From the NCBI GenBank assembly GCA_011390645.1, contig JAABRY010000017.1, positions 1 to 40,099 of the forward strand: a DNA stretch of 40,099 nucleotides, given 5' to 3'. This stretch comes from Gemmatimonadota bacterium. GTDB lineage: Bacteria > Gemmatimonadota > Gemmatimonadetes > Gemmatimonadales > GWC2-71-9. Positions 2,158 through 40,099 of the stretch are shown piece after piece. Below the pieces are notes generated by a model that was not told the DNA's origin, did no database searches, and saw nothing but the letters and a program-made list of their open reading frames with translations. Numbering within the stretch: position 1 is the first letter of the stretch; each line of letters starts with the position of its first letter. A program made the translations under genes and the position numbers.

Positions 2158-2165
2158 CGGCGGCG

Positions 2166-4966: not shown

Positions 4967-4970
4967 GGCT

Positions 4971-8433: not shown

Positions 8434-8543
8434 AGATGGACGCGAACCGCCTCGGCGCAGGACTCGCCGTGACGCGTGACAAACCGCTGCTCTTTGTCGG
8501 CGATGATTTCTCGAAGACGGATGTCGAGGTGTGTCCATGGTAG
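8430..8543 (+). pseudogene. vapC 3' remnant (PIN toxin C-terminus)
   Basis: A 37-residue frame whose C-terminal half, KPLLFVGDDFSKTDVEVCPW, matches the conserved tail of VapC PIN toxins (LLFkGdDFxxTD). The preceding RLGAGLAVTRD fits the helix before it. The first hundred or so residues of the toxin are absent: the frame begins inside the last codons of K3 (ATGA). This looks like a toxin gene truncated when K3 or its repeat arrived. It is unrelated in sequence to the intact PIN gene 3.6 kb downstream, which has a different C-terminus. Confidence 0.7.
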
Positions 8544-8890: not shown

Positions 8891-8958
8891 CCCTCGACCG
8901 CCTCCGCACCGCCCCTTCCGCCCCTTCGGCGCCGCCCGCCCTGGAGTCCCGGCCATGA
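8887..8958 (+). CDS. 23-residue leader ORF with abortive kinase start
   Basis: Encodes MTLDRLRTAPSAPSAPPALE plus three residues. The first seven residues copy the kinase N-terminus (compare MTLDALRD in K2), then a proline/alanine/serine tract takes over. Its ATG overlaps the stop of the preceding repeat frame and its TGA overlaps the K4 start, giving two NTGA couplings in a row. It is probably a remnant of another kinase start, possibly kept as a coupling leader. Confidence 0.35.
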   Translation: MTLDRLRTAPSAPSAPPALESRP

Positions 8959-11600
8959 GTCTCGAACGCCTCAGGGCAAGCCTGTCCGACCGCTACCGCG
9001 TCGAGCACGAACTCGGCGCGGGCGGCATGGCCACGGTCTACCTCGCACACGACCTCAAGCACGAACGCGACGTCGCGATCAAGGTGCTGCATCCGGACCT
9101 CGGTGCGGCGCTCGGCGGTGAACGCTTCCTGTCAGAGATTCGTACCACTGCGAAGCTGCAGCACCCCCACATCCTGCCGCTGTTGGACAGCGGTGACGCC
9201 GACGGCCTCCTCTACTACGTCATGCCGCTCGTCACCGGCGAAACGCTGCGCGCCCGCCTCGACCGCGAGCAGCAACTTCCCGTTACCGATGCCGTCCTGA
9301 TCGCGCGCGAGGTCGCCGATGCGCTCGGGCACGCGCACGGGATGGGGATCATCCACCGCGACATCAAACCCGAGAACATCCTGCTGCAGGGTGGCCACGC
9401 ACTGGTGGCCGACTTCGGCATCGCACTCGCGGTGCAGAGCGCTGGCGGCGCGCGGATGACGCAGACCGGCCTCTCGCTCGGCACGCCACAATACATGAGC
9501 CCCGAACAGGCAATGGGGGAGCGCGCCATTGACGCGCGCAGCGATATCTACGCGCTCGGAGCGGTGACCTACGAGATGCTGGCCGGTGAGGCGCCGTTCA
9601 CAGGCCCCAGCGTGCAGGCGATCGTGGCACGGTTGATCACCGAAGAACCACGACCGCTGGCAGCGCAACGCAAGGCGGTGCCGGAGCACATCGAGGCAGC
9701 GGTGTTGCGCGCACTCGAGAAACTCCCCGCGGATCGCTTCGTGAGTGCAGCAGAGTTCGCAGGCGCGCTTGCGGGCACCATGACGGCCGGGACGGTATCA
9801 CGCACGGCACAACGTGCGCCCGCAGCGAGCGGTCGGTGGCGCGCAGTGAGTGCCGCGCTCGGTGTCACGACCATCGCGCTCGCTGCGGTCGCCGCGTGGG
9901 CATTGACGCGCACACCGAGCTCTACGGGGCCGAGCGTGTACGACGTCGCGACCCCCGACAGCGCGCGCGTCTCGTTCATCAACAGTTCCTCGCGCCTGGA
10001 CACCTACGGTGCGGTCAACCGCAGCGTGTCAATCGCCCCCAACGGCGAATTCGCCGTGTATGTCGCCCTGCCACCCGATTCCGTGCCGTCCCTCTGGTAT
10101 CGCAACCTGCTGACCGACGAGGCGCGACCGATTCCGGGAACGGCCGGGGCGAGCGCGCCGCGAGTGTCGCCCGATGGCTCGCAGGTCGCGTACTTCGGCA
10201 CTGATCAGGTGATGGTGACCTCGCTCACCGGCGGCCCCTCCCGTCCGCTGGCCACGATCATCAACGGGGGGATGCTGGATTGGGTCTCGTCTTCCGAGGT
10301 CCTCGCGCTCGGCTCCGACGGCGATCGCGCAGTCTGGATCAATCCGGGCGGCGGTGAGCCGCGCGAACGCGCGATCGTGCGTTGTCCGCTCGGCACCTGG
10401 ACCGCGAGCCTGAGCGAGTTGCTCTGCTCCTTCAACGGCGTGGCCCGGACGATCAACCTCCAGACCGACTCCACGCACGAGGTCAAGACCGCGCAGGATG
10501 ACGGCACGCCTGGCGCGTCCCTCGCGGGCTCCGAGTTCCGGCTCATTGATGGTCGCTACCTCGTCTTCATCAATCCCGACGGCGTGCTGTCGGCGGCACG
10601 ATACGACCCCGAGACGCATCTGGCCGACCGCCCGGTCGCCTTCTTCTCGGGGATCCGTCGTGAGGCGCTCGGACAGGCACAATTCGATATCTCGGGCACA
10701 GGTACGCTGATCTACGCCCCGGGGATTGATGTGACGAATGGCCGGCTGGTTCGGCGCGTACCGGGTGCTCCTCCAGAGCCCCTTCCGATCGAGGCCGCGA
10801 ACTTCCAGCGCTACGACGTGAGCCGTGACGGCCGGTGGTTGGCCGCGGTGGTGCAGGCGACGAATATGAACGAGTTGCGCATCTATGACCTGCGCACGGG
10901 CCAGCACACCGTGTGGCAGCGCGCCGAGAGCATGCGACATCCGATGTGGAGCCCTGATGGTCAATCGATGGTCTTCCAGGCGCGCACATCCGATCGGTGG
11001 TTCCTGGTACGAGGCTCCCCCGGATCCGGTGCGTCGCTCGACACCCTGGCGCGATACGCCGTGGATAGTGTGAATTTCGATCCGGTGGGGTATGTCACCG
11101 ACTCGTCAGTGATCGCGCAGGATTGGAATCGCTCCATCGTCGCGCGATTCGACCCACGACAGCCAGCGGCCACGATGGACACTGTGCTCAGCGGGGCGCG
11201 CTTCCCCAGCGTCTCGGCGACCGGGCAACTCATCGCCTACCAGACGAGGGATGGTAGCCGGATCATGGTGACCACCTTCCCCGCTCCAGGTAGACGGTGG
11301 CAGATCGCCTCGCAGGGTGTCGAGCCTATCATGCTCTCGCCCTCCACCGTGCTCTTCCGTCAGGGCGCCGCGTGGTACACCGCCATGGTGAACCCGGCGA
11401 CCGGTGAGCCGAGTGGCGCACCAGTAATGTGGGCGACCGATCCACGCTTCTCCGATACCTCCGGGTGGTCGAACGTCCCGACGCACGATGGCGGCATCAT
11501 CTACGTGCAGGGCCCTGAGCAGGAGAGCCCGGGACACTTCCGGGTGATCCCCAACTGGGTTGCCCAGATGAAGCGCGCCGTGGATGCGGGGGGCAAATGA
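8955..11600 (+). CDS. K4: transmembrane Ser/Thr kinase with PD40 propeller
   Basis: 881 residues. Kinase domain with LGAGGMATVY (20-29), Lys43, HRDIKPEN (134-141), DFG (153-155) and the activation segment MTQTGLSLGTPQYMSPEQ, identical to that of K1. A membrane helix lies at about 295-315 (LGVTTIALAAVAAWAL). The C-terminal half is a TolB/PD40-like propeller (VSPDGSQVAYFG, WSPDGQSMVFQA) with less regular blades. The ATG overlaps the 3' end of a 23-codon leader; CCGGCC precedes it, so there is no Shine-Dalgarno sequence. Substrates are unknown; the closeness of K1, K2 and K4 suggests overlapping kinase specificity with different sensor domains. Confidence 0.95.
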   Translation: MSLERLRASLSDRYRVEHELGAGGMATVYLAHDLKHERDVAIKVLHPDLGAALGGERFLSEIRTTAKLQHPHILPLLDSGDADGLLYYVMPLVTGETLRARLDREQQLPVTDAVLIAREVADALGHAHGMGIIHRDIKPENILLQGGHALVADFGIALAVQSAGGARMTQTGLSLGTPQYMSPEQAMGERAIDARSDIYALGAVTYEMLAGEAPFTGPSVQAIVARLITEEPRPLAAQRKAVPEHIEAAVLRALEKLPADRFVSAAEFAGALAGTMTAGTVSRTAQRAPAASGRWRAVSAALGVTTIALAAVAAWALTRTPSSTGPSVYDVATPDSARVSFINSSSRLDTYGAVNRSVSIAPNGEFAVYVALPPDSVPSLWYRNLLTDEARPIPGTAGASAPRVSPDGSQVAYFGTDQVMVTSLTGGPSRPLATIINGGMLDWVSSSEVLALGSDGDRAVWINPGGGEPRERAIVRCPLGTWTASLSELLCSFNGVARTINLQTDSTHEVKTAQDDGTPGASLAGSEFRLIDGRYLVFINPDGVLSAARYDPETHLADRPVAFFSGIRREALGQAQFDISGTGTLIYAPGIDVTNGRLVRRVPGAPPEPLPIEAANFQRYDVSRDGRWLAAVVQATNMNELRIYDLRTGQHTVWQRAESMRHPMWSPDGQSMVFQARTSDRWFLVRGSPGSGASLDTLARYAVDSVNFDPVGYVTDSSVIAQDWNRSIVARFDPRQPAATMDTVLSGARFPSVSATGQLIAYQTRDGSRIMVTTFPAPGRRWQIASQGVEPIMLSPSTVLFRQGAAWYTAMVNPATGEPSGAPVMWATDPRFSDTSGWSNVPTHDGGIIYVQGPEQESPGHFRVIPNWVAQMKRAVDAGGK

Positions 11601-11613
11601 GCCTCACCACCAG

Positions 11614-11810
11614 GAGCTCGCGGCTAAAGCCGAGGCTCGGCGGATGCCGCTAAAGCGGCGGGGCTCACCATGGCATTGAGAGCTCGCGGCTAAAGCCGCG
11701 GCTCGGCTGATGCCGCTAAAGCGGCGGGGCTCACTCTGGCATGGAGCCGGTCGCTTTAGCGACACCTGCCGAGCCGTCGCTTTAGCGACGTGCTCATTAG
11801 CGACGAGCGC
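11614..11810. repeat. REPIN-like cluster R4 with two tandem left halves
   Basis: Left halves start at 11614 and 11680, again exactly 66 bases apart. The first has GCCGAGGCTCGG in place of GCCGCGGCTCGG, which weakens its outer hairpin. One right half follows (GGTCGCTTTAGCGACACC, GCCGAGCC, GTCGCTTTAGCGAC) with the tail GTGCTCATTAGCGACGAGC. It separates K4 from the toxin-antitoxin genes. Confidence 0.87.
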
Positions 11811-11826
11811 TTGTCCGCCCACACCA

Positions 11827-11842
11827 TTATAGCTATTATAGC
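11827..11842 (+). promoter_or_regulatory. Putative antitoxin operator and leaderless promoter
   Basis: Direct repeats TTATAGC at 11827-11833 and 11836-11842, with the palindrome ATAGCTAT at 11829-11836, form an AT-rich island in GC-rich DNA. TATTAT at 11834-11839 fits TAnnnT and ends 6 bases before the antitoxin ATG, with no room for a Shine-Dalgarno sequence, so a leaderless transcript is likely. The repeats are the natural site for autoregulation by the antitoxin; that is inference from the family. Confidence 0.55.
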
Positions 11843-11845
11843 CAG

Positions 11846-12139
11846 ATGACCACCGCATCCGTCTCCGAAGCCAAGAACCAGCTCAGCGCCCTGCTCCGCC
11901 TGGTGCAAGCTGGTGAATCGGTGCTCATCACCGACCGCGGTATCCCCGTGGCACGACTCGAGCCGGTGCGTCTCGGGGCCGGCATCCCCGCCAGCGTCCT
12001 CGGGCTGGCCCAACAGGGCCTGGTGCAGCTGCCGGAAATCGAACCCACCGACGACTGGCTCGACCTTCCTCGCCCAGCCGTGATGTCTGGCCGCTGCGGC
12101 TCCGACCTCCTCCTCGATGAGCGGCGCGAGGGGCGATGA
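11846..12139 (+). CDS. Phd/YefM-type antitoxin
   Basis: 97 residues. The N-terminal MTTASVSEAKNQLSALLRLV with ITDRGIPVARLEPV is the Phd/YefM fold, which binds operator DNA as a dimer. The C-terminal part (IPASVLGLAQQGLVQLPEIE and on) is the extended toxin-neutralising arm typical of partners of PIN toxins. The gene overlaps the toxin by four bases (ATGA). AT-rich repeats just upstream are probably its own operator. The pair lies between repeat clusters R4 and R5 like a cassette. Confidence 0.9.
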   Translation: MTTASVSEAKNQLSALLRLVQAGESVLITDRGIPVARLEPVRLGAGIPASVLGLAQQGLVQLPEIEPTDDWLDLPRPAVMSGRCGSDLLLDERREGR

Positions 12140-12567
12140 GGTTCTGGGATTCGTCCGCGCTGGTTCCCCTGCTCCTACCGGAACCAACGACAGCACACTT
12201 GATGGCTGTGATGCGCGCAGACCCGGCGGCGGCCGTCTGGTGGGCAACACCCGTTGAATGTGCTTCAGCCATCGCGCGACTCACGCGAGACGAACGGCTG
12301 TCGAGAGACGATGCCGCGATGGCCACTGGCCTGCTCACGACCGCGCAGCGCGGGTGGAGCGTGGTGCCACCGACCGACCCGGTGCGTCAGCAGGCGATGC
12401 GGCTCCTGCGCCTGCATCCGCTCCGCGCGGCCGACGCGCTGCAGCTCGCTGCGGCATTGGTCCTCGCCGAACATGACCCACGCACCCTGCCATTCGTCAC
12501 CCTCGACGACCGACTCGCGCTCGCCGCAGAGCGTGAGGGGTTCGAGGTGATGGGAGCTCGCGGCTGA
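12136..12567 (+). CDS. vapC: PIN-domain toxin (VapC family)
   Basis: 143 residues. Acidic PIN residues are present: Asp5 in FWDSSALV, Glu41 in PVECASA, Asp100 in RAADALQLAAAL and Asp124/125 in TLDDRLALAA, so the ribonuclease site looks intact. Known members cleave tRNA or other RNA and are held inactive by the cognate antitoxin, here the overlapping upstream gene. The last residues (GARG) and the stop codon are supplied by repeat R5, which begins at 12554, so the insertion replaced or trimmed the original C-terminus by only a few residues. Confidence 0.92.
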   Translation: MRFWDSSALVPLLLPEPTTAHLMAVMRADPAAAVWWATPVECASAIARLTRDERLSRDDAAMATGLLTTAQRGWSVVPPTDPVRQQAMRLLRLHPLRAADALQLAAALVLAEHDPRTLPFVTLDDRLALAAEREGFEVMGARG

Positions 12568-12732
12568 AGCCGCGGCTCGGCGGATGCCGCTAAAGCGGCG
12601 GGGCTCCCCGTGGCATGGGAGCTCGCGGCTGAAGCCGCGGCTCGGCGGATGTCGCTGAAGCGACATGCTCTCCCTGGCACGGCACCCGTCGCTTTAGCGA
12701 ATCCGCCGAGCCGTCGCTTTAGCGACGAGCTC
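12554..12732. repeat. REPIN-like cluster R5 with two tandem left halves
   Basis: Left halves start at 12554 and 12619 (65 bases apart, one base short of the usual period). The second has GTCGCTGAAGCGAC, again a paired C/T and G/A change relative to the first, GCCGCTAAAGCGGC. The right half lacks part of one stem (GTCGCTTTAGCGAATCC). It overlaps the toxin stop on its left. Confidence 0.86.
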
Positions 12733-12810
12733 ATTCGTTACGCACCCAACGCGTTAAATTGTGGTGATCCACGAATCAATCGCTTCTCGAACACCCCCGG
12801 AGCCGTGTGA
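12610..12810 (+). CDS. Mini-ORF through R5 ending at K5 start
   Basis: A 66-codon frame from GTG crosses the second unit of R5 (WELAAEAAARRMSLKRHALP) and continues through unique sequence to TGA, overlapping the K5 start as GTGA. After the centre it is in a different frame of the right half from the frames at R1, R2, R3 and R7 because of indels. It may be chance; it is listed because the overlap geometry recurs at all five complete kinases. Confidence 0.2.
   Translation: MAWELAAEAAARRMSLKRHALPGTAPVALANPPSRRFSDELIRYAPNALNCGDPRINRFSNTPGAV
12755..12760 (+). promoter_or_regulatory. Putative -10 box of K5
   Basis: TAAATT fits TAnnnT and sits in a short AT-richer stretch between R5 and K5, about 46 bases before the GTG. 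If used, K5 has its own promoter independent of the upstream genes. Confidence 0.35.
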
Positions 12811-15086
12811 ACCCACACGCCGACGCTGGCGCCACCCGCACCGGCACCACCCTTGGGCGCTATCGCCTGCTCGATCGGCTCGGCGCCGGCGGGATGGGCG
12901 AAGTCTGGCGCGCACACGACGCAAACCTTGATCGCGACGTCGCGATCAAGCTGCTCGCACCCGGCGCCGTGGCCGATGCCACCACGACCGAGCGCTTTCG
13001 TCGCGAGGCGCTCGCCCTCTCGCGGCTCTCGCACCCGGGTGTAGCGACGATCTTCGACTTCGACGCACAAGACGGCACCGCCTTCCTCGTGATGGAACTC
13101 GTCAGCGGCGGCTCCCTCGAGGCACGACTCACCGACGGACCGCTTCCCATCGTGGAGATCGCCCAGCTCGGCGCGGCCATCGCCGATGCCATCGCCGAAG
13201 CGCATCAACGCGGCATCCTGCATCGCGATCTCAAGCCGGCCAACATCGTGCTCACCCCGGCAGGACAACCGAAGATCCTCGACTTCGGGATCGCACGCCT
13301 GCTCGGCAACGCCGAATCGGCCAAGCTCACCCAGACGGGGATGCTGATCGGCTCACTCCCCTACATGGCCCCCGAGCAACTCACGGGCGACACCGACGAT
13401 GCGCGCACCGACATCTACGCGCTCGGCGTGATGCTCTTCGAGATGACCACCGGGCGGCGTCCGTTCGTGAAGGAACGCCCGGAAGCGCTGATGTTCGAGA
13501 TCTTCGGCAATGCCGCGCCTGCCGTGCGCTCCCTCCGCGCAGAGACGCCACCCGCGCTCGACCGGCTCATCGACGACTGTCTCGCGAAGGATCCCGCGCG
13601 ACGCCCGGCCTCTGCGTCTGACGTCGCTGCAACACTCCGTTCCCTTGGCAGTGGGACGACCTCCGGTCCCGTGGCGATTCCTGTCCACGATGCCATCCGC
13701 GCGATCGCCGTACTCCCGCTCCGCAACGTCTCGGGTGACCCGACCCAGGAGTATTTCGCGGACGGCCTCACCGAGGCGATCATCTCGGACCTGTCGCGTA
13801 TCAAGGCACTGCGCGTGATCTCACGCACCTCCGCGATGCAGTACAAGGGCAGCACCAAGACGTTGCCGGAGATCGCGCGGGAGCTGAACGTGGACGCCGT
13901 GCTCGAGGGTTCGGCACACCTCGTGGGGGAGCGCGTGCGCGTCAGCGTGCAACTCATCGCTGCGCGCAGTGACGAGACGCTCTGGGCAGACCGGTATGAT
14001 CGCCAGCTCGATGATGTGCTGACGCTGCAGAGTGATGTAGCCGAGACCGTCGCGCGGGAAGTCGCCGTGCAGCTCACGCCGGAGGAGGCTGGGCATCTCG
14101 CGCAGCGGCAGGTCGTGAACCCAGAGGCGCACCTTGAGGTGCTCAAGGCCAGGCATTCGATGTTCGCCGGCACGAAGGACGCCCTCGAGGTGGCACTGCG
14201 CCACGCGCGTCGCGCGCTCGACCTTGCCCCGGACTACCCCGTGGCGTGGGCGGCACTGGCCGACTGCCAGATCGTGCGGGTCATGCGCGGCATGGCGCCC
14301 CCCGCGGAAGCTGGCGCGGAGGCGTGGTCGGCCGCGACCCGTGCCCGCGAGCTGGACCCCGCGCTGGCCGACGCGTGGAGCTCTCTGGGAATTATCGCGT
14401 CCTACCAGCGTGACGTGCCCGGCGGCCTGGAACTGCTCACCCGCGCGGTCGAGCTGAATCCCGGCCTCGCCTTCGCCCATGCGATGCGCGGGATCGCACT
14501 CATCGCCCTGGGCCGCACGGAGGAGGCGGTGGCGTCCTCCCAGCGTGCGATCGCACTCGACCCGCTCTCGTCGATCATCCGCACCGGCCTCGGCGACGCG
14601 CTCTACTACGCGCGCGAGTTCCAGCAGTCCGTCTTCCACTACACCATGGCGATCGAGCTCGACCCTCGGTTCGACGGCGCCCATACCGACCTCGCCCGCT
14701 CCCTCGAGGCGCTCGGGCGCTTTGAGGAGGCGCGCACCGCCTATGAAACCGGACGTCGTTTGGCGGGGGGCATCGCGGGTCCCACGTTCGGGCTCGCGCA
14801 CTTGGAAGCGGCAGCAGGGAACACCATCGAGGCACGGCGCATTCTCGCGGAGCTCACCGCCGCTCGCGGGAGCCGCGTCGTCTCCGCGTGGGGAATTGCC
14901 GCCCTGCACGCATCACTTGGCGACGTGGATGAGGCCTTCGCATGGTTGGAGACCGCGATTGCGGAGAACGCCTCCGGCCTGATGTGGTTGCGCATGCACC
15001 CCCGGCTCGACCCGATCCGGAACGACCCGCGCTATTGGCCGATGGTGGTCCGGGTGGGGCTCGATGATGGGGGGGAGGGCGCGTGA
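12807..15086 (+). CDS. K5: Ser/Thr kinase with FlgO-like and TPR domains, no membrane helix
   Basis: 759 residues from GTG. LGAGGMGEVW (25-34), Lys48, HRDLKPAN (139-146), DFG (159-161), MAPEQL: an active RD kinase of a different subfamily from the other five, whose motifs read GGMATVY and HRDIKPEN. The FlgO/TolB-like domain (IAVLPLRNVSGDPTQEYFAD, from about 307) and TPR repeats (about 430-740) follow. No hydrophobic segment separates kinase and sensor, so the protein is probably cytoplasmic. It has its own possible -10 box. The start overlaps a repeat-derived frame as GTGA; an in-frame alternative start further downstream would cut the glycine-loop strand. Confidence 0.94.
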   Translation: MNPHADAGATRTGTTLGRYRLLDRLGAGGMGEVWRAHDANLDRDVAIKLLAPGAVADATTTERFRREALALSRLSHPGVATIFDFDAQDGTAFLVMELVSGGSLEARLTDGPLPIVEIAQLGAAIADAIAEAHQRGILHRDLKPANIVLTPAGQPKILDFGIARLLGNAESAKLTQTGMLIGSLPYMAPEQLTGDTDDARTDIYALGVMLFEMTTGRRPFVKERPEALMFEIFGNAAPAVRSLRAETPPALDRLIDDCLAKDPARRPASASDVAATLRSLGSGTTSGPVAIPVHDAIRAIAVLPLRNVSGDPTQEYFADGLTEAIISDLSRIKALRVISRTSAMQYKGSTKTLPEIARELNVDAVLEGSAHLVGERVRVSVQLIAARSDETLWADRYDRQLDDVLTLQSDVAETVAREVAVQLTPEEAGHLAQRQVVNPEAHLEVLKARHSMFAGTKDALEVALRHARRALDLAPDYPVAWAALADCQIVRVMRGMAPPAEAGAEAWSAATRARELDPALADAWSSLGIIASYQRDVPGGLELLTRAVELNPGLAFAHAMRGIALIALGRTEEAVASSQRAIALDPLSSIIRTGLGDALYYAREFQQSVFHYTMAIELDPRFDGAHTDLARSLEALGRFEEARTAYETGRRLAGGIAGPTFGLAHLEAAAGNTIEARRILAELTAARGSRVVSAWGIAALHASLGDVDEAFAWLETAIAENASGLMWLRMHPRLDPIRNDPRYWPMVVRVGLDDGGEGA

Positions 15087-15090
15087 GCTC

Positions 15091-15130
15091 GCGTGCGATT
15101 GCGTGCGATTGCGCGCGATTGCGCGCGCTC
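15091..15130. repeat. 10-base tandem repeat (GCGTGCGATT)
   Basis: Units GCGTGCGATT, GCGTGCGATT and GCGCGCGATT, then the partial GCGCGCGCTC, lie between the K5 stop and repeat R6. The last partial unit grades into the R6 left end. It is probably slipped-strand expansion next to the hairpin. Confidence 0.7.
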
Positions 15131-15254
15131 GCGGCTGAAGCCGCGGCTCGGCTGGTGTCGCTAAAGCGACGGGTGCCGTGCCAAGGAGAGCCCGTCACTT
15201 TAGTGACACCAGCCGAGCCGTCGCTTTAGCGACGTGCTCTTTAGCGACGTGCTC
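15127..15254. repeat. REPIN-like repeat R6, 3' flank of the RAYT gene
   Basis: Left half GCGGCTGAAGCCGC, GGCTCGGC, GTCGCTAAAGCGAC. The right half contains GTCACTTTAGTGAC where other copies have GTCGCTTTAGCGAC; both stem bases changed together, keeping the pairing. The stop codon of the transposase (minus strand TGA, 15195-15197) lies inside this altered hairpin. Confidence 0.87.
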
Positions 15255-15662
15255 AAGCGACGGGGCAGGCTCCCAACCCGCGATGGCTTCCGTCGGATGG
15301 TGCAGGTGTTGTGTATTGACGTAGGCAAGGACGCGTTCGAGTCCTCTGGGGCTGACCGAGGTGACGCTGTATCCCTTCGCCCTTTTGAGTGGCGTTTGCG
15401 CTGACGAGTTGGCCGCATTGATGCCGTAGGCGGTACCACCCTTCATCCGCTGGAGCAGCTGTGGGAGGTCGGTTGTGGGATGCACACGCAGGAGCATGTG
15501 AAGGTGTGTGGCCACTATGCCGAGCGCCAGAACGCGAGCCCTTCCCTGTCTGGCGATGATCGGCAGGTGTTCACTGAGGTACAACGCACGCCCACGATCG
15601 AGCGAGGCAATACGATCTCGCGTCGTCCAAACGAGGTGTACATGCAGGCGATGATGCATCAT
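15195..15662 (-). CDS. REP-associated tyrosine transposase (RAYT, Y1 family)
   Basis: 155 residues from ATG (an in-frame TTG lies two codons upstream). The start HHRLHVHLVWTTRDR is the first strand of the IS200-type Y1 fold. The metal-binding HUH motif is THLHMLL with His53 and His55. The catalytic tyrosine is Tyr114 in AYVNTQHLHH, with Gln117. GYSVTSVSPRGLERVL is the usual strand-helix before it, so the enzyme looks intact. Such enzymes nick and join single-stranded DNA at hairpins; RAYTs act on REP palindromes. Here R6 and R7 flank the gene on both sides, and its last twenty or so residues (EHVAKEHVAKATARLVSLK) are translated from R6 itself. It is a single copy within the window and transcribed against the kinase array. 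It is the likely mobilising enzyme of R1-R7. Confidence 0.88.
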   Translation of the reverse strand: MMHHRLHVHLVWTTRDRIASLDRGRALYLSEHLPIIARQGRARVLALGIVATHLHMLLRVHPTTDLPQLLQRMKGGTAYGINAANSSAQTPLKRAKGYSVTSVSPRGLERVLAYVNTQHLHHPTEAIAGWEPAPSLEHVAKEHVAKATARLVSLK

Positions 15663-15737
15663 GGCCAAATGCTACGACACTGGGGGCTCGGGCACGGCAC
15701 GTTTCGCCGCGTTGCGGGGCGCATTGATGCGTCCGTC

Positions 15738-15872
15738 GAGCTCGCGGCTAAAGCCGCGGCTCGGCTGATGCCGCTGAAGCGGCGGTCCCCACGACCACGG
15801 AGCGAATGTCGCTTTAGCGACATCTGCCGAGCCGTCGCTTTAGCGACGTGCTCATTCGCGACGTGCTCGTTG
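15738..15872. repeat. REPIN-like repeat R7, 5' flank of the RAYT gene
   Basis: Left half GCGGCTAAAGCCGC, GGCTCGGC, GCCGCTGAAGCGGC. Right half GTCGCTTTAGCGAC, ATCTGCCGAGCC, GTCGCTTTAGCGAC, then two tail units (GCGACGTGCTCATTC and GCGACGTGCTCGTTG) leading to K6. A frame through it ends in TGA at 15903-15905, overlapping the K6 ATG. Confidence 0.87.
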
Positions 15873-15901
15873 GCAACGAACCCAATGGCGACAGACACAC
15901 G

Positions 15902-18562
15902 ATGATCCTCGAACGCCTAGCCGCCGCATTGGCCGACCGCTATACCCTCGACCGTGAGCTCGGCGCGGGCGGCATGGCCACCGTCTACCTCGCGCGCGAC
16001 CTCAAGCACGAGCGCGACGTGGCCATCAAGGTGTTGCGACCGGAGCTCGCGGCCGTGATCGGTGCCGATCGATTCCTGTCGGAGATTCGCACCACGGCAA
16101 ACCTGCAGCACCCGCACATCTTGCCGCTGTTTGACTCAGGCGCAACGCGCCTGAGTCATCCCGAGCAGAGCGAGGGATCTCAACAGTTCCTCTATTACGT
16201 CATGCCCTTCGTCGAGGGCGAGTCACTCCGCGATCGCCTCGACCGCGAAAAGCAGCTCCCGATCGCTGACGCTCTCCGCATCGCGAGCGAAGTGGCGAGT
16301 GCACTCGACTACGCCCATCGCCGCGGCATCATCCATCGCGACATCAAGCCCGAAAACATCCTGCTGCACGACGGCCAGGCGTTGGTCGCCGATTTCGGCA
16401 TCGCGCTCGCCGCCACCAGTGCGGGCTCCCGCATGACCGAAACCGGGATGTCGCTCGGCACGCCGCACTACATGTCTCCCGAACAGGCGATGGGCGAGCG
16501 CAGTCTGGATGCGCGCAGCGACATCTACGCGCTGGGCGCGATGACCTACGAGATGCTCGTGGGGGATCCACCGTTCACGGGGAGCACGGCGCAGGCCATC
16601 GTGGCCAAGGTGATGACCGAGAAGCCGGCCGCGCCGAGCCGGATGCGCGACACGATTCCCGCGTCGGTCGAGGACGCGGTGCTCACGGCGTTGCAGAAGT
16701 TGCCGGCTGATCGTTTCGCGAGTGCGGCGGAGTTCAGCGCCGCTCTCAAGGGCGGGGATGGCACCACGTCACGGCAGACGGTGGCATACCGGACCGCGGC
16801 ACCGGCGGGACCCGCGCGCTTCATCTGGCCAGCGCTCGCGGCTGTGGCCGTGGCCGCGGCGGCATGGGGGTGGCTGCGACCCACATCCGGGGACTTCGCT
16901 TCGGCAACGCTCCGGTATGCGGTGTCCCTTGATTCAATTGCCGTGGGTCGCGATGCGGTGGGACAACTCGCCGTGTCACCAGATGGCGAGTTGCTGGCCT
17001 ATGCGTACGGTCCCGATGACCGACTGATGCTACGGCGGCGCGATGCGGTGGAATTCTCGTCGCTGGCCGACACGGAGGATGCCCGCTCACCGTTCTTCTC
17101 GCCTGATGGCGAATCGCTGGGCTTTCTCAGGGGATCGCAGGTGATCGTCGTGCCGCTCGGCGGAGGACCACTCACCGTCTACACCGATTCCCTCGCCGGT
17201 GCACAGACGCCCGCCTGGGGTGACGACGGGTACATCTACGGGATCTACCGCGGGGAACCTGGCGGGTTGATGCGCATGCGTGCCGAACCGGGCGCACCGA
17301 TCGAGTCGTTCACCACCCTCGATCGCCCGGCGGGTGAGATCTGGCACCTCTTTCCGGACCCGCTCCCTGGCGGCCGCGGGGTGCTGTTCACGATGCAGCA
17401 CCCACAACGCGGCTACCACATCGCGGTGGCCGCGCCCGACGGCACCCACACCATCCTGTTGGAGGGAGCCCGCGCGCGCTATGCGAGCACTGGCCACCTC
17501 CTGTACACTACCATGGACGGTACCCTGTGGTCGGTCCCCTTTGATCCTGGCACGCTGCAGGTGACGGGCGATCCGTCGCGCGTGGCGACACAGCTCAAAC
17601 CATCCGTCGTCGGTCCGATCGAGTTCGCGATCTCACGGAACGGCACCCTGGCCTACACTGCGTCCGATGCCAGGACGAGTCGTGAACTCGTCTGGGTCAA
17701 CCGTGACGGCGGAGTGACGCCGGTGGACTCCACGTGGCGCGGGGACTTCGTCACCCCGGCGCTGTCACCGAACGATGACCGGATCGTGGTTACGCTCCGC
17801 GAGGGCGATGTCGCCGATCTCTGGGTACGCTCCACAAGTGCAGGCCAACCATCCCGTCTCACGTTCGGACAGGGCAAGAATGCTGGGGCTGTGTGGCACC
17901 CAAATGGGCAGTCGGTCGTATACCTCTCGGGGGAGAACCGACCGGAGGATGTCTGGATGAAACCCGTGGACGGCACCGCAGCTCCGACCCGGCTGACGAC
18001 TTCCGACCGGGCGATCTCCGAGGTGATCATGTCCCCCACCGGGCAGTCCGTGTTGGTCCGCACGACGACTTCGACCGCGGGCTCCGGAGACATCCTGGAA
18101 TTCACGTTGGGGGATTCTGTTGTGGTGCCGATCATCAGCAGCCCGGCCTTGGAGTATTCGCCGACCCTGTCGCCAGACGGTGCCTGGATGGCCTACGCCT
18201 CTGACGACAACGGACGACTCGAGATCTACGTGGTCCCATTTCCGATCCGTAGTGGAGTCCGTTGGCGCGTTTCAACGAATGGTGGGTCGATGCCGCTCTG
18301 GTCCCGCAATGGTCGCGAGATCTATTACGTGGATCGGATGTCGCGGTTGGTGGCTACCACCGTTACCACCGGAGGCAGCGTGCAGGTCGGAGCCACAATA
18401 GAGCTATTCAGTGTCTTGCCCTACGTGGTGGATGTCATCTCGCGCCGGAACTACGACGCAGATGCCAGCGGCAATCGCTTTTTGATGATCCGCGCCGTGG
18501 GTGGCCAGTCTGGCGAACAGGTGATCGTAACCGAGAACTGGCAGGGACCGACGTCGGAGTGA
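15902..18562 (+). CDS. K6: transmembrane Ser/Thr kinase with PD40 propeller and repeat insertion
   Basis: 886 residues. LGAGGMATVY (20-29), Lys43, HRDIKPEN (145-152), DFG (164-166) and SPEQAMGER are all present. Compared with K3, about a dozen extra residues (RLSHPEQSEGSQQ, 83-95) sit in the N-lobe turn between FDSG and LYYVMPF; they are encoded by a dispersed repeat that inserted in frame. A membrane helix at about 305-325 (WPALAAVAVAAAAWGWL) is followed by a PD40 propeller (VSPDGELLAYAYG, FSPDGESLGFLRG, LSPNDDRIVVTLR). The start giving MILERLAAALADRYTLDREL aligns with the other kinases; a GTG 54 bases upstream in R7 is in frame but less likely. A phosphatase gene follows 79 bases downstream. 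Confidence 0.95.
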   Translation: MILERLAAALADRYTLDRELGAGGMATVYLARDLKHERDVAIKVLRPELAAVIGADRFLSEIRTTANLQHPHILPLFDSGATRLSHPEQSEGSQQFLYYVMPFVEGESLRDRLDREKQLPIADALRIASEVASALDYAHRRGIIHRDIKPENILLHDGQALVADFGIALAATSAGSRMTETGMSLGTPHYMSPEQAMGERSLDARSDIYALGAMTYEMLVGDPPFTGSTAQAIVAKVMTEKPAAPSRMRDTIPASVEDAVLTALQKLPADRFASAAEFSAALKGGDGTTSRQTVAYRTAAPAGPARFIWPALAAVAVAAAAWGWLRPTSGDFASATLRYAVSLDSIAVGRDAVGQLAVSPDGELLAYAYGPDDRLMLRRRDAVEFSSLADTEDARSPFFSPDGESLGFLRGSQVIVVPLGGGPLTVYTDSLAGAQTPAWGDDGYIYGIYRGEPGGLMRMRAEPGAPIESFTTLDRPAGEIWHLFPDPLPGGRGVLFTMQHPQRGYHIAVAAPDGTHTILLEGARARYASTGHLLYTTMDGTLWSVPFDPGTLQVTGDPSRVATQLKPSVVGPIEFAISRNGTLAYTASDARTSRELVWVNRDGGVTPVDSTWRGDFVTPALSPNDDRIVVTLREGDVADLWVRSTSAGQPSRLTFGQGKNAGAVWHPNGQSVVYLSGENRPEDVWMKPVDGTAAPTRLTTSDRAISEVIMSPTGQSVLVRTTTSTAGSGDILEFTLGDSVVVPIISSPALEYSPTLSPDGAWMAYASDDNGRLEIYVVPFPIRSGVRWRVSTNGGSMPLWSRNGREIYYVDRMSRLVATTVTTGGSVQVGATIELFSVLPYVVDVISRRNYDADASGNRFLMIRAVGGQSGEQVIVTENWQGPTSE
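16133..16182. repeat. Dispersed GTCATCCCGAGC repeat inserted in K6 coding sequence
   Basis: GACTCAGGCGC, loop AAC and GCGCCTGAGTC form a perfect 11-base stem (16133-16157). It is followed by ATCCCGAGCAGAGCGAGGGA, the core of the repeat also found at 31609-31635. The reading frame stays open, adding residues to a surface turn of the kinase N-lobe. Confidence 0.75.
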
Positions 18563-18641
18563 ACAGGCGATCCTTCGGCGTGTCGCAGCGGCAGATACCG
18601 GAGTCTTCTTGCTTTCTCGCATTCTCGCTTTCGAGGTTGCC

Positions 18642-19526
18642 ATGCCAACAGAAGTCCGCACCACCCGCACGAGCAGCGTCGAGCCAGACCGTCCCCGCGA
18701 TGACGAGCTCGATCTCTTCGGCCTGACGCACACCGGCAACGTGCGCAAGAACAACCAGGACCACTTTCTGCTCGCCACCGTGCACCCGCAAGTGGTGCTC
18801 CACGGCACATCGCTGCCGGAAGCCGAGCGGATGCCGATGCGCGGGCAGCGCGTGGCGACCCTCATGCTGGTGGCGGATGGCGTGGGCGGCACGAGTGGTG
18901 GTGCGGAAGCGAGCCAGCTCGCCGTCGAGGCGATCATGAACTACGTCTCGGGATCGCTGCGTTGCTATCACCTCGCGGGTGACAGTCACGATGGCGAGTT
19001 CGAGGAGGCGCTCCGCACCGCCGCGTTCGAGGCGCACGCCAAGGTGCGCGCCGAGGCCGCGTCGCACCCGGACACGCCGAAGATGGCCACGACACTCACC
19101 ATCGCGATCGTGACCTGGCCGTGGGTCTATGTGGTGCAAGTGGGCGACTCGCGTTGTTATCGCTATGTCCCCGGCGACATGCACCAGATGACGAAGGACC
19201 AGACGATGGCGCAGGCGCTCGCCGACCAGGGTGCGCTGCCGCGCGAGAAGATCACGATGTCGCCACTCAACAACGTCCTCGTGAGCGCCATCGGCGGCGA
19301 CACCGCCGAACCCGACGTGATCCGCTTCGACATCCGCGACCGCCGCTCACTGCTGCTGCTCTGCACCGACGGCCTCACCAAGCATGTCAGCGATGCCGAG
19401 ATTGCTGACCACATTGACCGGATGACCTCCGCCGAGCAACTCTGTCGCGACCTGCTGGCCCTCGCCTTGGAGCGCGGTGGCAGCGACAACGTGACGATCC
19501 TGGCGGGGCGGGCGCCCAAGCAGTGA
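18642..19526 (+). CDS. PP2C-family protein phosphatase
   Basis: 294 residues. PP2C motifs in order: GNVRKNNQDHF with Asp40, LVADGVGG with Asp79, ATTLTIAIV, VGDSRCYRY (168-175), CTDGLTKHVSDAEI with Asp243 and GGSDNVTIL with Asp282. All metal-coordinating aspartates are present. It has no membrane segment, so it acts in the cytoplasm on phospho-Ser/Thr. An inserted loop (about residues 47-70) between the first two motifs is longer than usual. An upstream in-frame start at 18609 exists, but ATG 18642 has GAGG nearby. Its position after six kinases suggests it reverses their phosphorylation. Confidence 0.94.
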   Translation: MPTEVRTTRTSSVEPDRPRDDELDLFGLTHTGNVRKNNQDHFLLATVHPQVVLHGTSLPEAERMPMRGQRVATLMLVADGVGGTSGGAEASQLAVEAIMNYVSGSLRCYHLAGDSHDGEFEEALRTAAFEAHAKVRAEAASHPDTPKMATTLTIAIVTWPWVYVVQVGDSRCYRYVPGDMHQMTKDQTMAQALADQGALPREKITMSPLNNVLVSAIGGDTAEPDVIRFDIRDRRSLLLLCTDGLTKHVSDAEIADHIDRMTSAEQLCRDLLALALERGGSDNVTILAGRAPKQ

Positions 19527-34918: not shown

Positions 34919-37711
34919 ATGATCCCGTTGCGCATCGCCGTCGCACTGTTGACCGCCACCCCGGCCCCACCCGCCGAGACCGTCGTCTGGATCGAACAGG
35001 CGATGGCGTCGCTGGCGTGCACGGCACTCGCGGAAGATGCGGAGATCGCGTCGCTGCGGCGTCCGGTGCTGCAGAACCCCGGCGACGCAAGCGCGTTGCG
35101 TGCCTACTTCCAGGCAACACCACGTGACGCGCGACATGCCCGCTATCGTCACCTCGCCACGCTGTCGGGCATCGCGTGGTGGGCTGGTCGTATCAACGAC
35201 CAGGAACTGCGTGGCGACGTCCTCGCCAACATTCTCGGCACGGCACAACAGGCGGCGGCGGCGGACCGCGATCCGCTCCTGTTTCGTCAGATCCAGCAGT
35301 GCGCCTTGGCACAGATCGTCGTGGTGACCTTGGAACAGGGCCGCTTCGAGGCGGCCGACAAGCTCACCGCCGCGCTGCTCACCACGCGGCGCACGGCAGC
35401 CGTGGAGGACTGGCCGCTGATTCTCGCGCTGCGCGAGGCGCAGCTCCTCCCCGCCGCCCGGACCACCACCGCCCGCCTGGCCACCGCGCTGCTGACTACC
35501 GCCGGCACCGCGCAGGCCGCAGGCGACAGTGCACGCGCGTCACGGCTGTATGCGGCGGTGAGCCTCGCGCTGACTGCCCTCGGTGAGCCTCGTGCACGCG
35601 ATGCGGCGCTGCAAGCGCTGGTACTGAGCGGCCGCCCGCCCCGTCCTGCCACCGCTTGGCAGGTCTTTCCAGTGCTCTTCGACGCCCAGCATCGCGCCAC
35701 CACGCTCACCCAGGCCGCCGGGCTTGCCCAGCTCGTGGCCCCGGGGACTCCCCCCCCCACCCTGCGAGACAGCCGGGCCGTCTTCGCGACGCTGCAGCGG
35801 CTGGCAGCCATCGCCGAGGGTCGTGAGGAGTACGAGACGGGAGGACAGCATCGGCTCGCGGCATTTCGCGCACTCAACACCGCCGGTGCCCTCGATCCGC
35901 CCTCGCTGCTCTTCCTGCGCACTGGCCTCGCCGACCTGCTTGGCCCGCGCGACACCACGATCCGAACCGTCGCGCGCGCCAGGCCCGCATGGGGTCGGGA
36001 AACACTCGCGGACTATCTGAAGGCGCCCGCCACCCTCGCCACACAGGCTGCGAACCAGTTCGTGAGTGACGCACCGGCACGCCTGATCGAGCGCTACAAG
36101 ATTGACAGCAACCTGCGCGCCCTGATGCAATTGCACGATGCGATGCCGACAGAACGCGCACGAATTGTCGACGCGGCGTTCCGCCTCGCACAGCTCCGTT
36201 CCTTTGGCCGCCTCACCCTCGCGACGCTCAGCGCCGAACTGGCGCGCAGTCCGATCCCTGCGGCCCGGCGCTTCGATACCGAGCGGTTCTTCTCGCTGGC
36301 GAGCCAGGATGGCACCTGGATGCGGGGGTTGCTCAACCAGATCGCCACCCCACACGATGCCCCACCCCCGGAAGGCGCGCGCCTTTGGCCGGTGGTCTTC
36401 ATGCTGAGTGTCTTCCAGAACGAAACCACGCAGGGGCTGGCCGACTACCTCGCCTACGTGCGCGCGAACGCGCCGGCGGTCGGCGCGCTCGCCACCCCAC
36501 GTCCATTGGCGTTCACCGCGTTTCAGGATCGCCTCGAGATCGATGAAGCACTCGTCGCCACGCTCGTGACCACGCATGAGAGCTACGTCTTCGCGATCAC
36601 CAGCCGGGCAGTGCGCATGGTGCAGGTACCGATCACCGAGGCAGAGCTCGTCGCCACCATCACGCGCCTCCGCGCAGGGCTCACCCCCACCGTGGTGGCC
36701 GGAGCCACCCGGCTCCCTGATTTCGACGCCGCCGCGGCACACGCGCTCTACCAGCACTTCTTCGCCCCGGTCGAGGACATGCTCGCCAATGTCCGCACCA
36801 TCACCTGGTATGGCGATGGCCCGCTCGGCAGTGTCCCGCCGGCTGTGTTGCTGACAGCTCCTCCCCCCACGCCCACGGTGACGCACGCGGCGGACATTGC
36901 GCAGTTGACGTTCCTGCTTGACAAGCACGCCATCGTGGCGCTGCCGGACCTCGCCCTCTTCATTCCCTATCGTGACCGCGCGCGCGCCCCGGAGCGTGCA
37001 CGAAGCTTTTTCGGCGTGGGCGCCCCGATGCTCGCGCCGGAGGAGATTGACGGGACGCGACGTGGCCGCTCGACCGAGCTCGCGGGAGCGATGGATGGCC
37101 GCGCGCTGCGGGAACTACCCACGCTCGCCGAGTCGGTGGACGAGATCCGAGGCATCGCGGCACTCTTCCCCGAGGGCGGTGCCACACTGCGACTCGGCCC
37201 TGCCGCCAACGAGCGCGAGTTCGTGGGCAATCAACTCGCCGGGCATCGCGTGATCGCGCTCGCAACGCACGGCTTCCTGGCGGGCGAGGTCGCAGGGGTT
37301 CCCGAGCCGTCGCTGATGCTCGCCCTGCCGGACGATCCGGAGGGTCGGTTCGACGGGATCCTGCGCGCGAGCGAGATCGCGCAGTTGCAGCTCAACGCCG
37401 ACCTGGTGATCCTCTCCGCGTGCAACACCGCCACGGCCAACGGCCGGCCGCGTTCCGAGATGTACACCGGATTGGCACAGGCATTCTTCACGGCAGGTGC
37501 GCGGAACCTGCTGGTGAGCCATTGGCCCGTGGTCTCAGGGGCGGCGGTGCAGCTCACGGTGGCAACGGTACAGGACCACGTTGGAGGCACCGTCCCACTC
37601 GCGCAGAGTTTGCAGCGCGCGATGCAGCAGGTGCGGCGTACAGCAACCACGGATTTCGAGGCGCACCCCGCCTACTGGGGGCCCTTCGTCATTGCGGGCG
37701 ACGGTCGCTGA
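34919..37711 (+). CDS. CHAT-domain caspase-like protease with helical N-terminus
   Basis: 930 residues. The C-terminal CHAT domain (about 620-930) has the catalytic His in VIALATHGFLAG and Cys in LVILSACNTATA, then AFFTAGARNLLVSHWPV and HPAYWGPFVIAGD, all typical of the family (separase/caspase clan). The first 550 residues are alpha-helical and repeat-like, in the place where TPRs usually sit, though canonical TPR residues are weak. The start MIPLRIAVALLTATPAPPAE looks like a short export signal, unusual for a CHAT protease. The 3' end overlaps the convergent FecR-like gene by 23 bases. The neighbours (FecR-like, CHASE2) suggest a sensing pathway that controls a protease. Confidence 0.9.
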   Translation: MIPLRIAVALLTATPAPPAETVVWIEQAMASLACTALAEDAEIASLRRPVLQNPGDASALRAYFQATPRDARHARYRHLATLSGIAWWAGRINDQELRGDVLANILGTAQQAAAADRDPLLFRQIQQCALAQIVVVTLEQGRFEAADKLTAALLTTRRTAAVEDWPLILALREAQLLPAARTTTARLATALLTTAGTAQAAGDSARASRLYAAVSLALTALGEPRARDAALQALVLSGRPPRPATAWQVFPVLFDAQHRATTLTQAAGLAQLVAPGTPPPTLRDSRAVFATLQRLAAIAEGREEYETGGQHRLAAFRALNTAGALDPPSLLFLRTGLADLLGPRDTTIRTVARARPAWGRETLADYLKAPATLATQAANQFVSDAPARLIERYKIDSNLRALMQLHDAMPTERARIVDAAFRLAQLRSFGRLTLATLSAELARSPIPAARRFDTERFFSLASQDGTWMRGLLNQIATPHDAPPPEGARLWPVVFMLSVFQNETTQGLADYLAYVRANAPAVGALATPRPLAFTAFQDRLEIDEALVATLVTTHESYVFAITSRAVRMVQVPITEAELVATITRLRAGLTPTVVAGATRLPDFDAAAAHALYQHFFAPVEDMLANVRTITWYGDGPLGSVPPAVLLTAPPPTPTVTHAADIAQLTFLLDKHAIVALPDLALFIPYRDRARAPERARSFFGVGAPMLAPEEIDGTRRGRSTELAGAMDGRALRELPTLAESVDEIRGIAALFPEGGATLRLGPAANEREFVGNQLAGHRVIALATHGFLAGEVAGVPEPSLMLALPDDPEGRFDGILRASEIAQLQLNADLVILSACNTATANGRPRSEMYTGLAQAFFTAGARNLLVSHWPVVSGAAVQLTVATVQDHVGGTVPLAQSLQRAMQQVRRTATTDFEAHPAYWGPFVIAGDGR

Positions 37712-38588
37712 CGTCGGCTGCACGACCCCAGAGGATCGCATCGCCGAGGGCACTGGCGAGTTCGTCGCCCGCACGGATCAACGGACGCAACCGCTCAAAC
37801 GCATCGAACTGCCAGCGCCCGGCGTCCAGATCCGCGAGCCACGCGGCGTGGGCCACCGTACCGAACGCGCTGGTGTCCGCAACCAGCTCCGGTGGGGATG
37901 TCGGCAGCGTGGCCATCACCTCCAGTGTGCCGACAAAGCGCTGACCCGCCGCATCACCGATCACCAACTGCAGCGGACCCGGGCGCAGGCTGAGCGCATT
38001 GAGGCGTACCTGTGGTGCTACGATGCCCGTACGATGCGCGAGCGTGTCATCGCCCGCGAGCAGATGCACGGAATACGGTGGACAGCCACCCCGCCACGCC
38101 AGCGGCAGGTCGCGTGGGCCCGTCGCGATGCGGGCGCCGGGGGTCAGCATCGGAAACTCGATCGCGGCCGCAGGCGTCCCTGCCCCCGGGCACTGCGTCT
38201 GGCCGCGTCCCGCGGCCATGCGTGATTGCCGGTACGAGTCATCAAAGAGATTCGGCAGCTTCCGGAAGAATGACGCGAGCGCGCCCATCCGCGGCGACGC
38301 CGGCACCACCTGACGCCCCGGTCCGTTGAGGCGCAGCGGTTCAGTGCGAGGGCGCTGCACCATGATGGAGGCGCCCGCGGGCAGGAGCACCGCATCACCG
38401 GCGTGCACCACCGTGCCGAGCTTGACGGCGACGGAATCACTGGGGCCGCGCAGCAGCACGAAGCGCCCGGTGACCGGCCGGTACTCCGCCACGACACCGA
38501 CTTCATCGCCGGACTGTGCGGTAGCAATCGTCGGCATTGCCATGGCGCTCGCGATCACGCACATCAGCGCATTCGACCACTGTCGCAT
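37689..38588 (-). CDS. Exported FecR-like protein
   Basis: 299 residues. Signal peptide MRQWSNALMCVIASAMAMPT then IATAQ. VTGRFVLLRGPSDSVAVKLG followed by VVHAGDAVLLPAGASIMVQR is the double-stranded FecR-like motif, as found in FecR-domain proteins next to CHASE2 genes. The second half (LPLAWRGGCPPYSVHLLAGD, VRLNALSLRPGPLQLVIGD) looks like an added beta-sandwich. Its ATG overlaps the CHASE2 stop (TGATG). Family assignment is moderate. Confidence 0.75.
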   Translation of the reverse strand: MRQWSNALMCVIASAMAMPTIATAQSGDEVGVVAEYRPVTGRFVLLRGPSDSVAVKLGTVVHAGDAVLLPAGASIMVQRPRTEPLRLNGPGRQVVPASPRMGALASFFRKLPNLFDDSYRQSRMAAGRGQTQCPGAGTPAAAIEFPMLTPGARIATGPRDLPLAWRGGCPPYSVHLLAGDDTLAHRTGIVAPQVRLNALSLRPGPLQLVIGDAAGQRFVGTLEVMATLPTSPPELVADTSAFGTVAHAAWLADLDAGRWQFDAFERLRPLIRAGDELASALGDAILWGRAADVSDRRPQ

Positions 38589-39871
38589 CACGCGCCCTCC
38601 GCATTGGGGGATTGCCATACTGCGTCTTTCACCGCACGCCAGGTGCGCCGGGGTTGTCCGGCATAGGTGGCGCGCCCGCGTCGGATGTTGCTGATCACCT
38701 CGCTGACGGCACGCAGCGCCTCGTACCAGATGGTCAGCAGGATGGCCGCCTCGAGTGATTCCACGAATCCGAGCCACCCGAACGTACCTAGTGCCACGCG
38801 GGTCAGCACGAGGACGAGCAACACCAACACCACCACCGTCGGGACGACGCCGCGCAGGTGGGCAGCCAGCCAGATGAAGGCACCGAAGAGCAGCAGGCCG
38901 ATCACCCGCCGACCGAGTTCGGGACCGATCCCGTCGCCAGGCTGGAATGGTGCGAACTGCACGGTGCCCGCGAGCAACTCGACGCCGGGGCGTGGGCCAG
39001 CGGGTGTCATCCAGAGATCACCGCTGGTGGTGTGGGTGAGGCCGAGCAACACCACGCGATCAGCGAAGAGCGCGGCGTCGTCTCGCGCGACCAACGTGTC
39101 GAGCACTGCGATCGCCGGAATCACCCGCGCCTGTGACGCGAAGCCCCCGGCGCCGATGCCGGTGAGCGACGGCCCGACCAGCATCGGGCGATCGGCTGGG
39201 TCGTCGGCCTCGGTGCATCCGGCAGGAGGAGCCGAGGTTGCATCATCAACCACGGCGTCAGCCACGGACGGTAGCATGACCGGCGCGTCCCCATCGCATG
39301 CCGCCAGCCATGGCGACCAGCGCCGCACGCTCCCGGATCCTTCGACCATGAAGTTCGCATGCGCCCAGCGCACGTGCGGGTGCAGAGCCACGAGCGAGTC
39401 GAGCGGACTGACCGCAAATCGTCGCGTACCATCTGCATCGGTGCGCACGCGCTTGGGCAGCACCACCATCGTCGGACCAGGGTGGGCCCCAAGGAAATCA
39501 CGAAGTTCCGGCTCACCTGCCGTCGAATCGCGCGTCGTCCCCCACGAGACATCAATGTCCACCACCAGCGCGGTCGGCCGTTGCACCACGATTCGCTCGA
39601 TCACCTGCACCAGCTCGGCGCGTGGCGTCAGCGCCGGATTGCCCCACGCCGCATCGGTCGCATCATCAATCGCCACCAAGGTGATCGGGGTGGTGCGGTC
39701 ATCAGGGAGCCAGCCGATTGCTGCTGCGCGCAGCGCGATATCCGGGTTGACAGCACCCGCGCCGACCAGCGCGATCGGCCACCCGGGCGCCTGGCTGCCG
39801 CACGCGAGGTAGATCGCACCGAGGAGCGGGGCGAGGCGGGAGAGGCCGTGGCGGGCGAGGAGGGAGGGCAA
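38588..39871 (-). CDS. CHASE2-domain membrane sensor
   Basis: 427 residues from TTG; no ATG or GTG occurs near the N-terminus, so the start is uncertain. CHASE2 landmarks: ITLVAIDDATDAAWG (63-77), RAELVQVIERIVVQRPTALV, VVDIDVSW, then VVLLGLTHTTSGDLWMTPAG and PGVELLAGTVQFA. Three C-terminal membrane helices follow (LLLFGAFIWLAAHL, VVPTVVVLVLLVLVLTRVAL, AAILLTIWYEAL) and a short basic tail with no kinase or cyclase output domain. The sensor must therefore act through partners, plausibly the FecR-like protein and the CHAT protease. A heptamer repeat lies just before the start codon. Confidence 0.88.
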   Translation of the reverse strand: MPSLLARHGLSRLAPLLGAIYLACGSQAPGWPIALVGAGAVNPDIALRAAAIGWLPDDRTTPITLVAIDDATDAAWGNPALTPRAELVQVIERIVVQRPTALVVDIDVSWGTTRDSTAGEPELRDFLGAHPGPTMVVLPKRVRTDADGTRRFAVSPLDSLVALHPHVRWAHANFMVEGSGSVRRWSPWLAACDGDAPVMLPSVADAVVDDATSAPPAGCTEADDPADRPMLVGPSLTGIGAGGFASQARVIPAIAVLDTLVARDDAALFADRVVLLGLTHTTSGDLWMTPAGPRPGVELLAGTVQFAPFQPGDGIGPELGRRVIGLLLFGAFIWLAAHLRGVVPTVVVLVLLVLVLTRVALGTFGWLGFVESLEAAILLTIWYEALRAVSEVISNIRRGRATYAGQPRRTWRAVKDAVWQSPNAEGA

Positions 39872-39874
39872 GGG

Positions 39875-39907
39875 AGGTCGTAGGTCGTAGGTCGTAGGTC
39901 GTAGGTC
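39875..39907. repeat. AGGTCGT heptamer repeat at CHASE2 start
   Basis: Four perfect units and one partial unit (AGGTCCG) end three bases from the CHASE2 start codon. Read on the minus strand the unit is ACGACCT. It occupies the place where a ribosome binding site would be. Confidence 0.85.
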
Positions 39908-39952: not shown

Positions 39953-40041
39953 CTCCGGCCTAGGCCGGAGCCCCCCCTTTCACCTTTCACCTTCGGCGGT
40001 CCCCCGTTCCCCGTTCCCCGTTCACCGTTCACCGTTCACCA
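39953..40041. repeat. 18-base palindrome plus TTCACC-type simple repeats
   Basis: CTCCGGCCTAGGCCGGAG (39953-39970) is a perfect palindrome followed by a C-run. Then come CTTTCACCTTTCACC, two CCGTTCC units, and CCGTTCA units at about 40018-40038. No gene is seen from 39872 to the window end. Confidence 0.7.
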
Positions 40042-40099
40042 ATCACCAATCGCTCCTTTGACCCTCCGTATACCTCCTGACCCCCTCCCCGCACGATTC

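Follow-up and report, generated by a model that had tools for sequence, protein, structure and literature searches.

The window that we analyzed is an entire contig (G000:C30; 40,099 bases) of a Gemmatimonadota MAG that is 86% complete. Close to one of its ends lie three genes, encoding a predicted CHAT-domain cysteine peptidase of 930 aa (34919..37711, plus strand), a 299-aa protein with a predicted export signal, hereafter the middle protein (37689..38588, minus strand), and a 427-aa CHASE2 receptor without an output domain (38588..39871, minus strand). The preliminary description of this DNA had claimed the three as a set, and all are indeed real genes, with a codon-position GC typical of coding sequence. 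The CHASE2 and middle genes share a TGATG junction (38586..38590, minus strand), in which the stop codon of the former overlaps the start codon of the latter by 1 nt. This suggests that their translation is coupled and, together with the strong GGAGG before the middle gene, makes the pair look like an operon. The CHAT gene is convergent to both, its 3′ end overlapping that of the middle gene by 23 bp, and the three genes are therefore not a single transcript. No promoter-like sites were found in the region of the three genes, and terminators occurred there at chance level only.

None of the three proteins matched the PADLOC defence profiles, no CRISPR-Cas gene was recognized next to the CHAT gene, and, as previously described, no gasdermin-like substrate was recognized beside the trio, nor was any defence gene. 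The contig end, directly upstream of CHASE2, carries tandem repeats of the heptamers AGGTCGT and CCGTTCA (39875-39907 and 40004-40047). Elsewhere, a run of six Ser/Thr protein kinase genes, the first of which is truncated by the contig start, leads up to a PP2C phosphatase gene (13-18562 and 18609-19526 of the window).

The CHAT protease, the CHASE2 receptor and the middle protein

Residues 606-928 of the CHAT protein match PF12770 with an E-value of 1.7e-42 (146.3 bits, against a gathering cut-off of 24). The motifs LATHG (H784) and LSACNT (C835) both line up with catalytic residues in relatives and, judged from its sequence, the protein is a predicted cysteine protease with an intact His784/Cys835 pair. 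It has no TM segment and no Pfam TPR match, and its N-terminal ~600 residues are without any significant Pfam match; many relatives, by contrast, have clear TPRs. A PDB sequence search with the CHAT protein alone gave no match, and a PDB profile search returned mostly TPR matches and a single CHAT entry, 8rot.

The ATG at 34919 is preceded by AAGG and by an in-frame TGA, which makes it the most upstream start possible. We consider it more plausible than a downstream start giving a cytoplasmic protein, which the preliminary description had set against its own proposal. Export was scored with a simple home-made signal-peptide score, in which 99% of internal control segments fall below 9.1 and which one cytoplasmic control passed (9.9), so that single cases are not proof. 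At the CHAT N-terminus, MIPLRIAVALLTATPAPPAE looks like a short Sec signal. Its core is short, however, there is no acceptable −3/−1 cleavage site, and the scorer rejects it for want of a fitting site. What stands of the export signal first attributed to this protein is thus a weak Sec-like N-terminus that fails the −3/−1 rule; we regard export of the CHAT protein as a plausible possibility.

A second, partial CHAT sequence is present in the same MAG. At the end of another contig (G000:C128, 1-414; L078), beside unrelated genes, a 414 bp piece is 90% identical to positions 36858-37271 of the window, within the CHAT gene. It may be a partial CHAT copy, a strain variant, or an assembly artefact.

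The CHASE2 protein matches PF05226 with an E-value of 6.8e-17 (62.3 bits, against a cut-off of 26.3). In its predicted layout, an extracytoplasmic CHASE2 domain (residues 52-304) lies between a weak N-terminal TM segment and three C-terminal TM helices, after which comes a short cytoplasmic tail. The three helices are placed at residues 317-338, 343-361, and 366-404 in a structure model of medium confidence (mean pLDDT 68), for which a PDB fold search gave no significant match. Since only TM helices and a tail of ~25-45 residues without a known domain follow the PF05226 domain, the earlier view that this CHASE2 lacks an enzymatic output holds. The gene starts with TTG and has no obvious ribosome-binding site. 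Single-sequence searches with the protein found no relatives, and profiles were required.

The middle gene likely starts at ATG 38588, downstream of GGAGG, rather than at GTG 38777. The resulting protein has a predicted Sec signal (residues 1-24; MRQWSNALMCVIASAMAMPTIATA, followed by QSGD) that scores 11.5, against the control value of 9.1 given above. A small beta domain (~29-94), a region that aligns with FN3/DUF928-like sequences, and a helical C-terminus follow. No match was found in Pfam, NCBIfam, or PADLOC, even at loose cut-offs, and PF04773 (FecR) was not matched at E≤1. Weak support for the idea that the protein is FecR-like, as had been proposed, came instead from its beta domain, which resembles FecR/LapA-retention domains, and from alignments. 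The AlphaFold model has low confidence overall, the confident part being N-terminal residues ~30-90, and it matches the cell-surface anchoring domain 5ix9 (TMt 0.76, rmsd 1.6, 68 columns), a match for which that confident part probably accounts. When aligned by hhalign with the FecR-like neighbors of other CHASE2 genes, the protein matched over the right stretch, the N-terminal halves, at E ~0.01-0.02 but with a low probability of 2-4%. It is 19-25% identical to the exported neighbors of the CHASE2-cyclases of family f5 (see below), with Gly, Pro, and Trp positions conserved. These f5 relatives give sub-threshold matches to the LapA retention model NF033682, and their C-terminal halves weakly resemble DUF928, with one aligned member (L052) lying above the DUF928 cut-off. 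The resemblance thus consists of a fold match over part of the protein and of weak similarity between profiles, and neither Pfam nor NCBIfam calls the protein a FecR; "FecR-like" is therefore a fair description of its N-terminal domain, and not a statement of family membership.

CHASE2 loci in Gemmatimonadota

CHASE2 genes are rare: within the order, 15 of 288 genomes have one, and in a sample of the phylum, 35 of 395. They are absent from all nine congeners of the host, and there was no match in any other genome of the same family that we searched. It is therefore probable that the window genes were acquired by transfer or have been retained in few lineages. A search for the empty site in the congeners allowed no comparison, as they lack an ortholog of the flanking FNT gene.

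We inspected 41 CHASE2 loci from 35 genomes (L046-L059, L101-L126, and the window), and scored as linked any CHAT or caspase (C14) gene located up to about 6 kb from CHASE2. Twenty-two of the 41 loci have such a caspase-fold gene (CHAT at 7 and C14 at 16, one locus having both), compared with 0.20 co-localizations expected for CHAT and 0.26 for C14 (about 0.5 in total) from gene counts and genome sizes in the same genomes. The pairing is found in six families (f1, f2, f4, f5, f6, and f7) with differing gene orders. Because the f5 operon is inherited, the 22 linked loci do not represent 22 independent events. The linkage of CHASE2 with a protease is not accidental. The neighborhood survey for which the preliminary description had called thus reveals that CHASE2 and a caspase-fold protease, often together with an exported middle protein, recur across the phylum. 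The catalytic pair is intact in the linked C14s and in all linked CHATs that were aligned, which thus retain the catalytic His. Many TPR-CHATs unlinked to CHASE2, from the genus, family, and order of the host (L060, L061, L064, L065, L067, L069, L071, L073, and L074), retain the Cys but carry Tyr or Phe where the catalytic His would be (HLATYG); on their sequences, they may be pseudo-proteases.

Three further loci combine a protease with a CHASE2 that has no output domain. At L055 (G208), CHAT, middle, and CHASE2 genes follow one another on one strand; at L101 (G337), the order is middle gene, CHASE2, and TPR-CHAT, with 8-bp overlaps; and at L058 (G266), a WD40-C14 gene is divergent from a middle gene and CHASE2. 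No relatives of the L101 triplet were found in its family, and a tblastn search of plasmids with its CHASE2 gave no match. Across the four output-less loci, the window included, no sequence homology could be detected among the middle proteins.

The strongly conserved operon of family f5 (L110-L124) encodes an MBL-like protein (named from a sequence motif only), a C14-DUF4384 protein, a CHASE2-cyclase, a FecR-like protein, and a GAF-HD protein, with the C14, CHASE2-cyclase, and FecR-like genes in that order; its C14 caspase is of the GHGSQ / D(N/K)CN(S/A)G type and has a Sec signal. At L056 (1150-7871), CHASE2-cyclase, GAF, subtilase, and CHAT genes lie on one strand, so that a single CHASE2 is adjoined by two protease types. 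L057 has two C14 genes near a CHASE2-cyclase, and L053 has a CHASE2-cyclase-DUF928 gene with an M48 peptidase and CHATs adjoining. L107 encodes a CHAT-TM-CHASE2 fusion, which does not qualify as a HetF, scoring 21.6 bits where the cut-off is 1200.

Predicted location of the protease and proposed function of the module

The signal score was passed by 13 of the 14 linked C14 proteins and by 4 of the 8 linked CHATs. Clear Sec signals are present on linked proteases of L101, L053, L056, L057, and L106 and on all complete f5 C14s; those of L055 and L058, which lie outside the limits of the scorer, were seen by eye. Several CHATs of the phylum that are unlinked to CHASE2 pass as well, and export is therefore not specific to the linked ones. 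The L107 fusion, by contrast, lacks a signal, and its TM segment is preceded by a positively charged stretch, from which its CHAT is predicted to be cytoplasmic. By prediction, two topologies thus exist among CHASE2-linked proteases. At L053, the DUF928 region follows a signal-like/TM segment, itself placed after the cyclase, and would for that reason lie outside the cytoplasm.

We think it very probable that CHASE2, the caspase-fold protease, and the exported partner work together as one module. Slightly below an even chance, in our estimation, but ahead of its rivals, is the fuller reading that the trio of the window is a variant of a recurrent Gemmatimonadota module, composed of a CHAT or C14 protease, CHASE2, and an exported FecR/DUF928-like protein, and that it acts as a periplasmic relay. 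From its domain and TM anatomy, CHASE2 would span the inner membrane with four helices and expose its sensing domain on the extracytoplasmic side. Because a cytoplasmic output domain is missing, it would fall to the exported middle protein, encoded in the same operon, to read the state of CHASE2 on that side. The middle protein may in turn hold or release the CHAT protease, which would itself be exported; its own signal is weak, but most of its linked relatives have clear ones. An envelope cue would thereby lead the His784/Cys835 protease to cut either the middle protein or some protein of the envelope. In favor of such a relay count the three other lineages in which an output-less CHASE2 is accompanied by a protease and an exported middle protein, the co-localization at 22 of 41 loci, the conserved f5 operon, the Sec signals and intact catalytic pairs of linked proteases, and the predicted placement of the L053 DUF928 region. 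Against it stand the failure of the CHAT signal at the −3/−1 rule, the lack of co-transcription of CHAT with CHASE2, the topology of L107, and the lack of recognizable sequence homology among the middle proteins that accompany an output-less CHASE2 at the four loci. The original proposal that an envelope signal is passed to a protease outside the cytoplasm has accordingly gained from the recurrence of the module and the mostly Sec-bearing linked proteases, and lost from the weak signal in the window and the predicted cytoplasmic CHAT of L107; periplasmic action of the window protease is plausible. The general form of the idea, namely that exported caspase-like proteases, with CHAT and C14 interchangeable, are controlled by a CHASE2 without output domain via an exported FecR/DUF928-like adaptor, all outside the cytoplasm, is one that we put forward more tentatively still.

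The same module could operate with a cytoplasmic CHAT, if the TM helices and short C-terminal tail of CHASE2 relay the signal inward and the sensing domain has the middle protein as its partner in the periplasm. This topology is predicted for the L107 and Trichodesmium fusions (PMC3501461), it agrees with the weak signal on the window CHAT, and deletion of its TM makes another CHAT protein, HetF, cytoplasmic (PMC8406250). However, many linked CHAT and C14 proteins have clear Sec signals, and the CHASE2 tail comprises just ~25-45 residues without a known domain; we regard this arrangement as unlikely, though a serious contender. That CHASE2 and the middle protein form a self-standing two-gene sensor, with CHAT as a chance or loosely related neighbor, would suit the convergent CHAT gene, which has no common transcript with them, and the restriction of CHASE2 to this one genome among those searched in the family leaves no close relative in which to compare the arrangement. 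Seven CHAT-CHASE2 co-localizations against 0.2 expected, in shuffled orders and four families, make this rather improbable.

The set could also be a FecIR-type surface-signaling operon, in which the middle protein is a genuine FecR anti-sigma regulator, given the FecR-like pattern of its beta domain and the PF04773 FecR gene that lies upstream of CHASE2 at one locus (L046). We consider this highly improbable, as the protein lacks a PF04773 match and has a predicted, cleaved N-terminal Sec signal in place of the cytoplasmic N-terminus and single TM of FecR; moreover, no ECF sigma factor or TonB receptor gene was recognized on the contig side of the trio, its other side being the contig end.

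Caspase-like proteases of bacteria have mostly been treated as enzymes of the cytoplasm, and often as linked to death or defence. Their phylum-wide pairing with an envelope receptor, and the signals that most of them bear, suggest a pathway of regulated envelope proteolysis, and the gene set provides a concrete, testable basis for asking what CHASE2 senses and what the protease targets.

Comparison with known systems

The cyanobacterial precedent to which the preliminary description appealed exists for metacaspase-CHASE2 fusions (PMC2853523, PMC3501461) and for a WD40/CHASE2/DUF928 cluster of Nostoc, whose function its authors only inferred (PMC5587647), but not for CHAT: in the open-access literature that we searched, we found neither CHASE2 nor FecR associated with CHAT, and no report in which a CHASE2 set of this type includes an exported caspase-fold protease. 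The TPR-CHAT of Craspase shares with the window protein a long N-terminal region ahead of a CHAT protease, but has an RNA-guided CRISPR partner (PMC9729208, PMC9935389), whereas no CRISPR-Cas neighbor was recognized here. HetF of Anabaena, a divisome/heterocyst protein, likewise ties a CHAT domain to the membrane, and with its TM deleted it loses its peripheral location (PMC8406250). It does so through its own TM and has TPRs, with no CHASE2 described, whereas the window CHAT has neither a TM nor a Pfam TPR. The FecR/LapA retention modules (PF04773, NF033682) resemble the middle protein in their small beta domain, in the 5ix9 fold match, and in the sub-threshold NF033682 matches of f5; the middle protein differs in having no profile match and no anti-sigma anatomy, and in not being an adhesin.

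In the Nostoc WD40/CHASE2/DUF928 cluster, CHASE2 adjoins a DUF928 protein, and at L058 a WD40-caspase lies beside the middle gene and CHASE2; a protease is not noted in that cluster (PMC5587647). The Trichodesmium erythraeum metacaspase-CHASE2 also couples a caspase-fold protease to CHASE2, with one TM before the domain and three after it (PMC2853523, PMC3501461). That protein, however, is one polypeptide with a C14 protease proposed to be cytoplasmic (PMC3501461), whereas the window has a separate CHAT, possibly extracytoplasmic, and a separate middle protein that is predicted to be exported.
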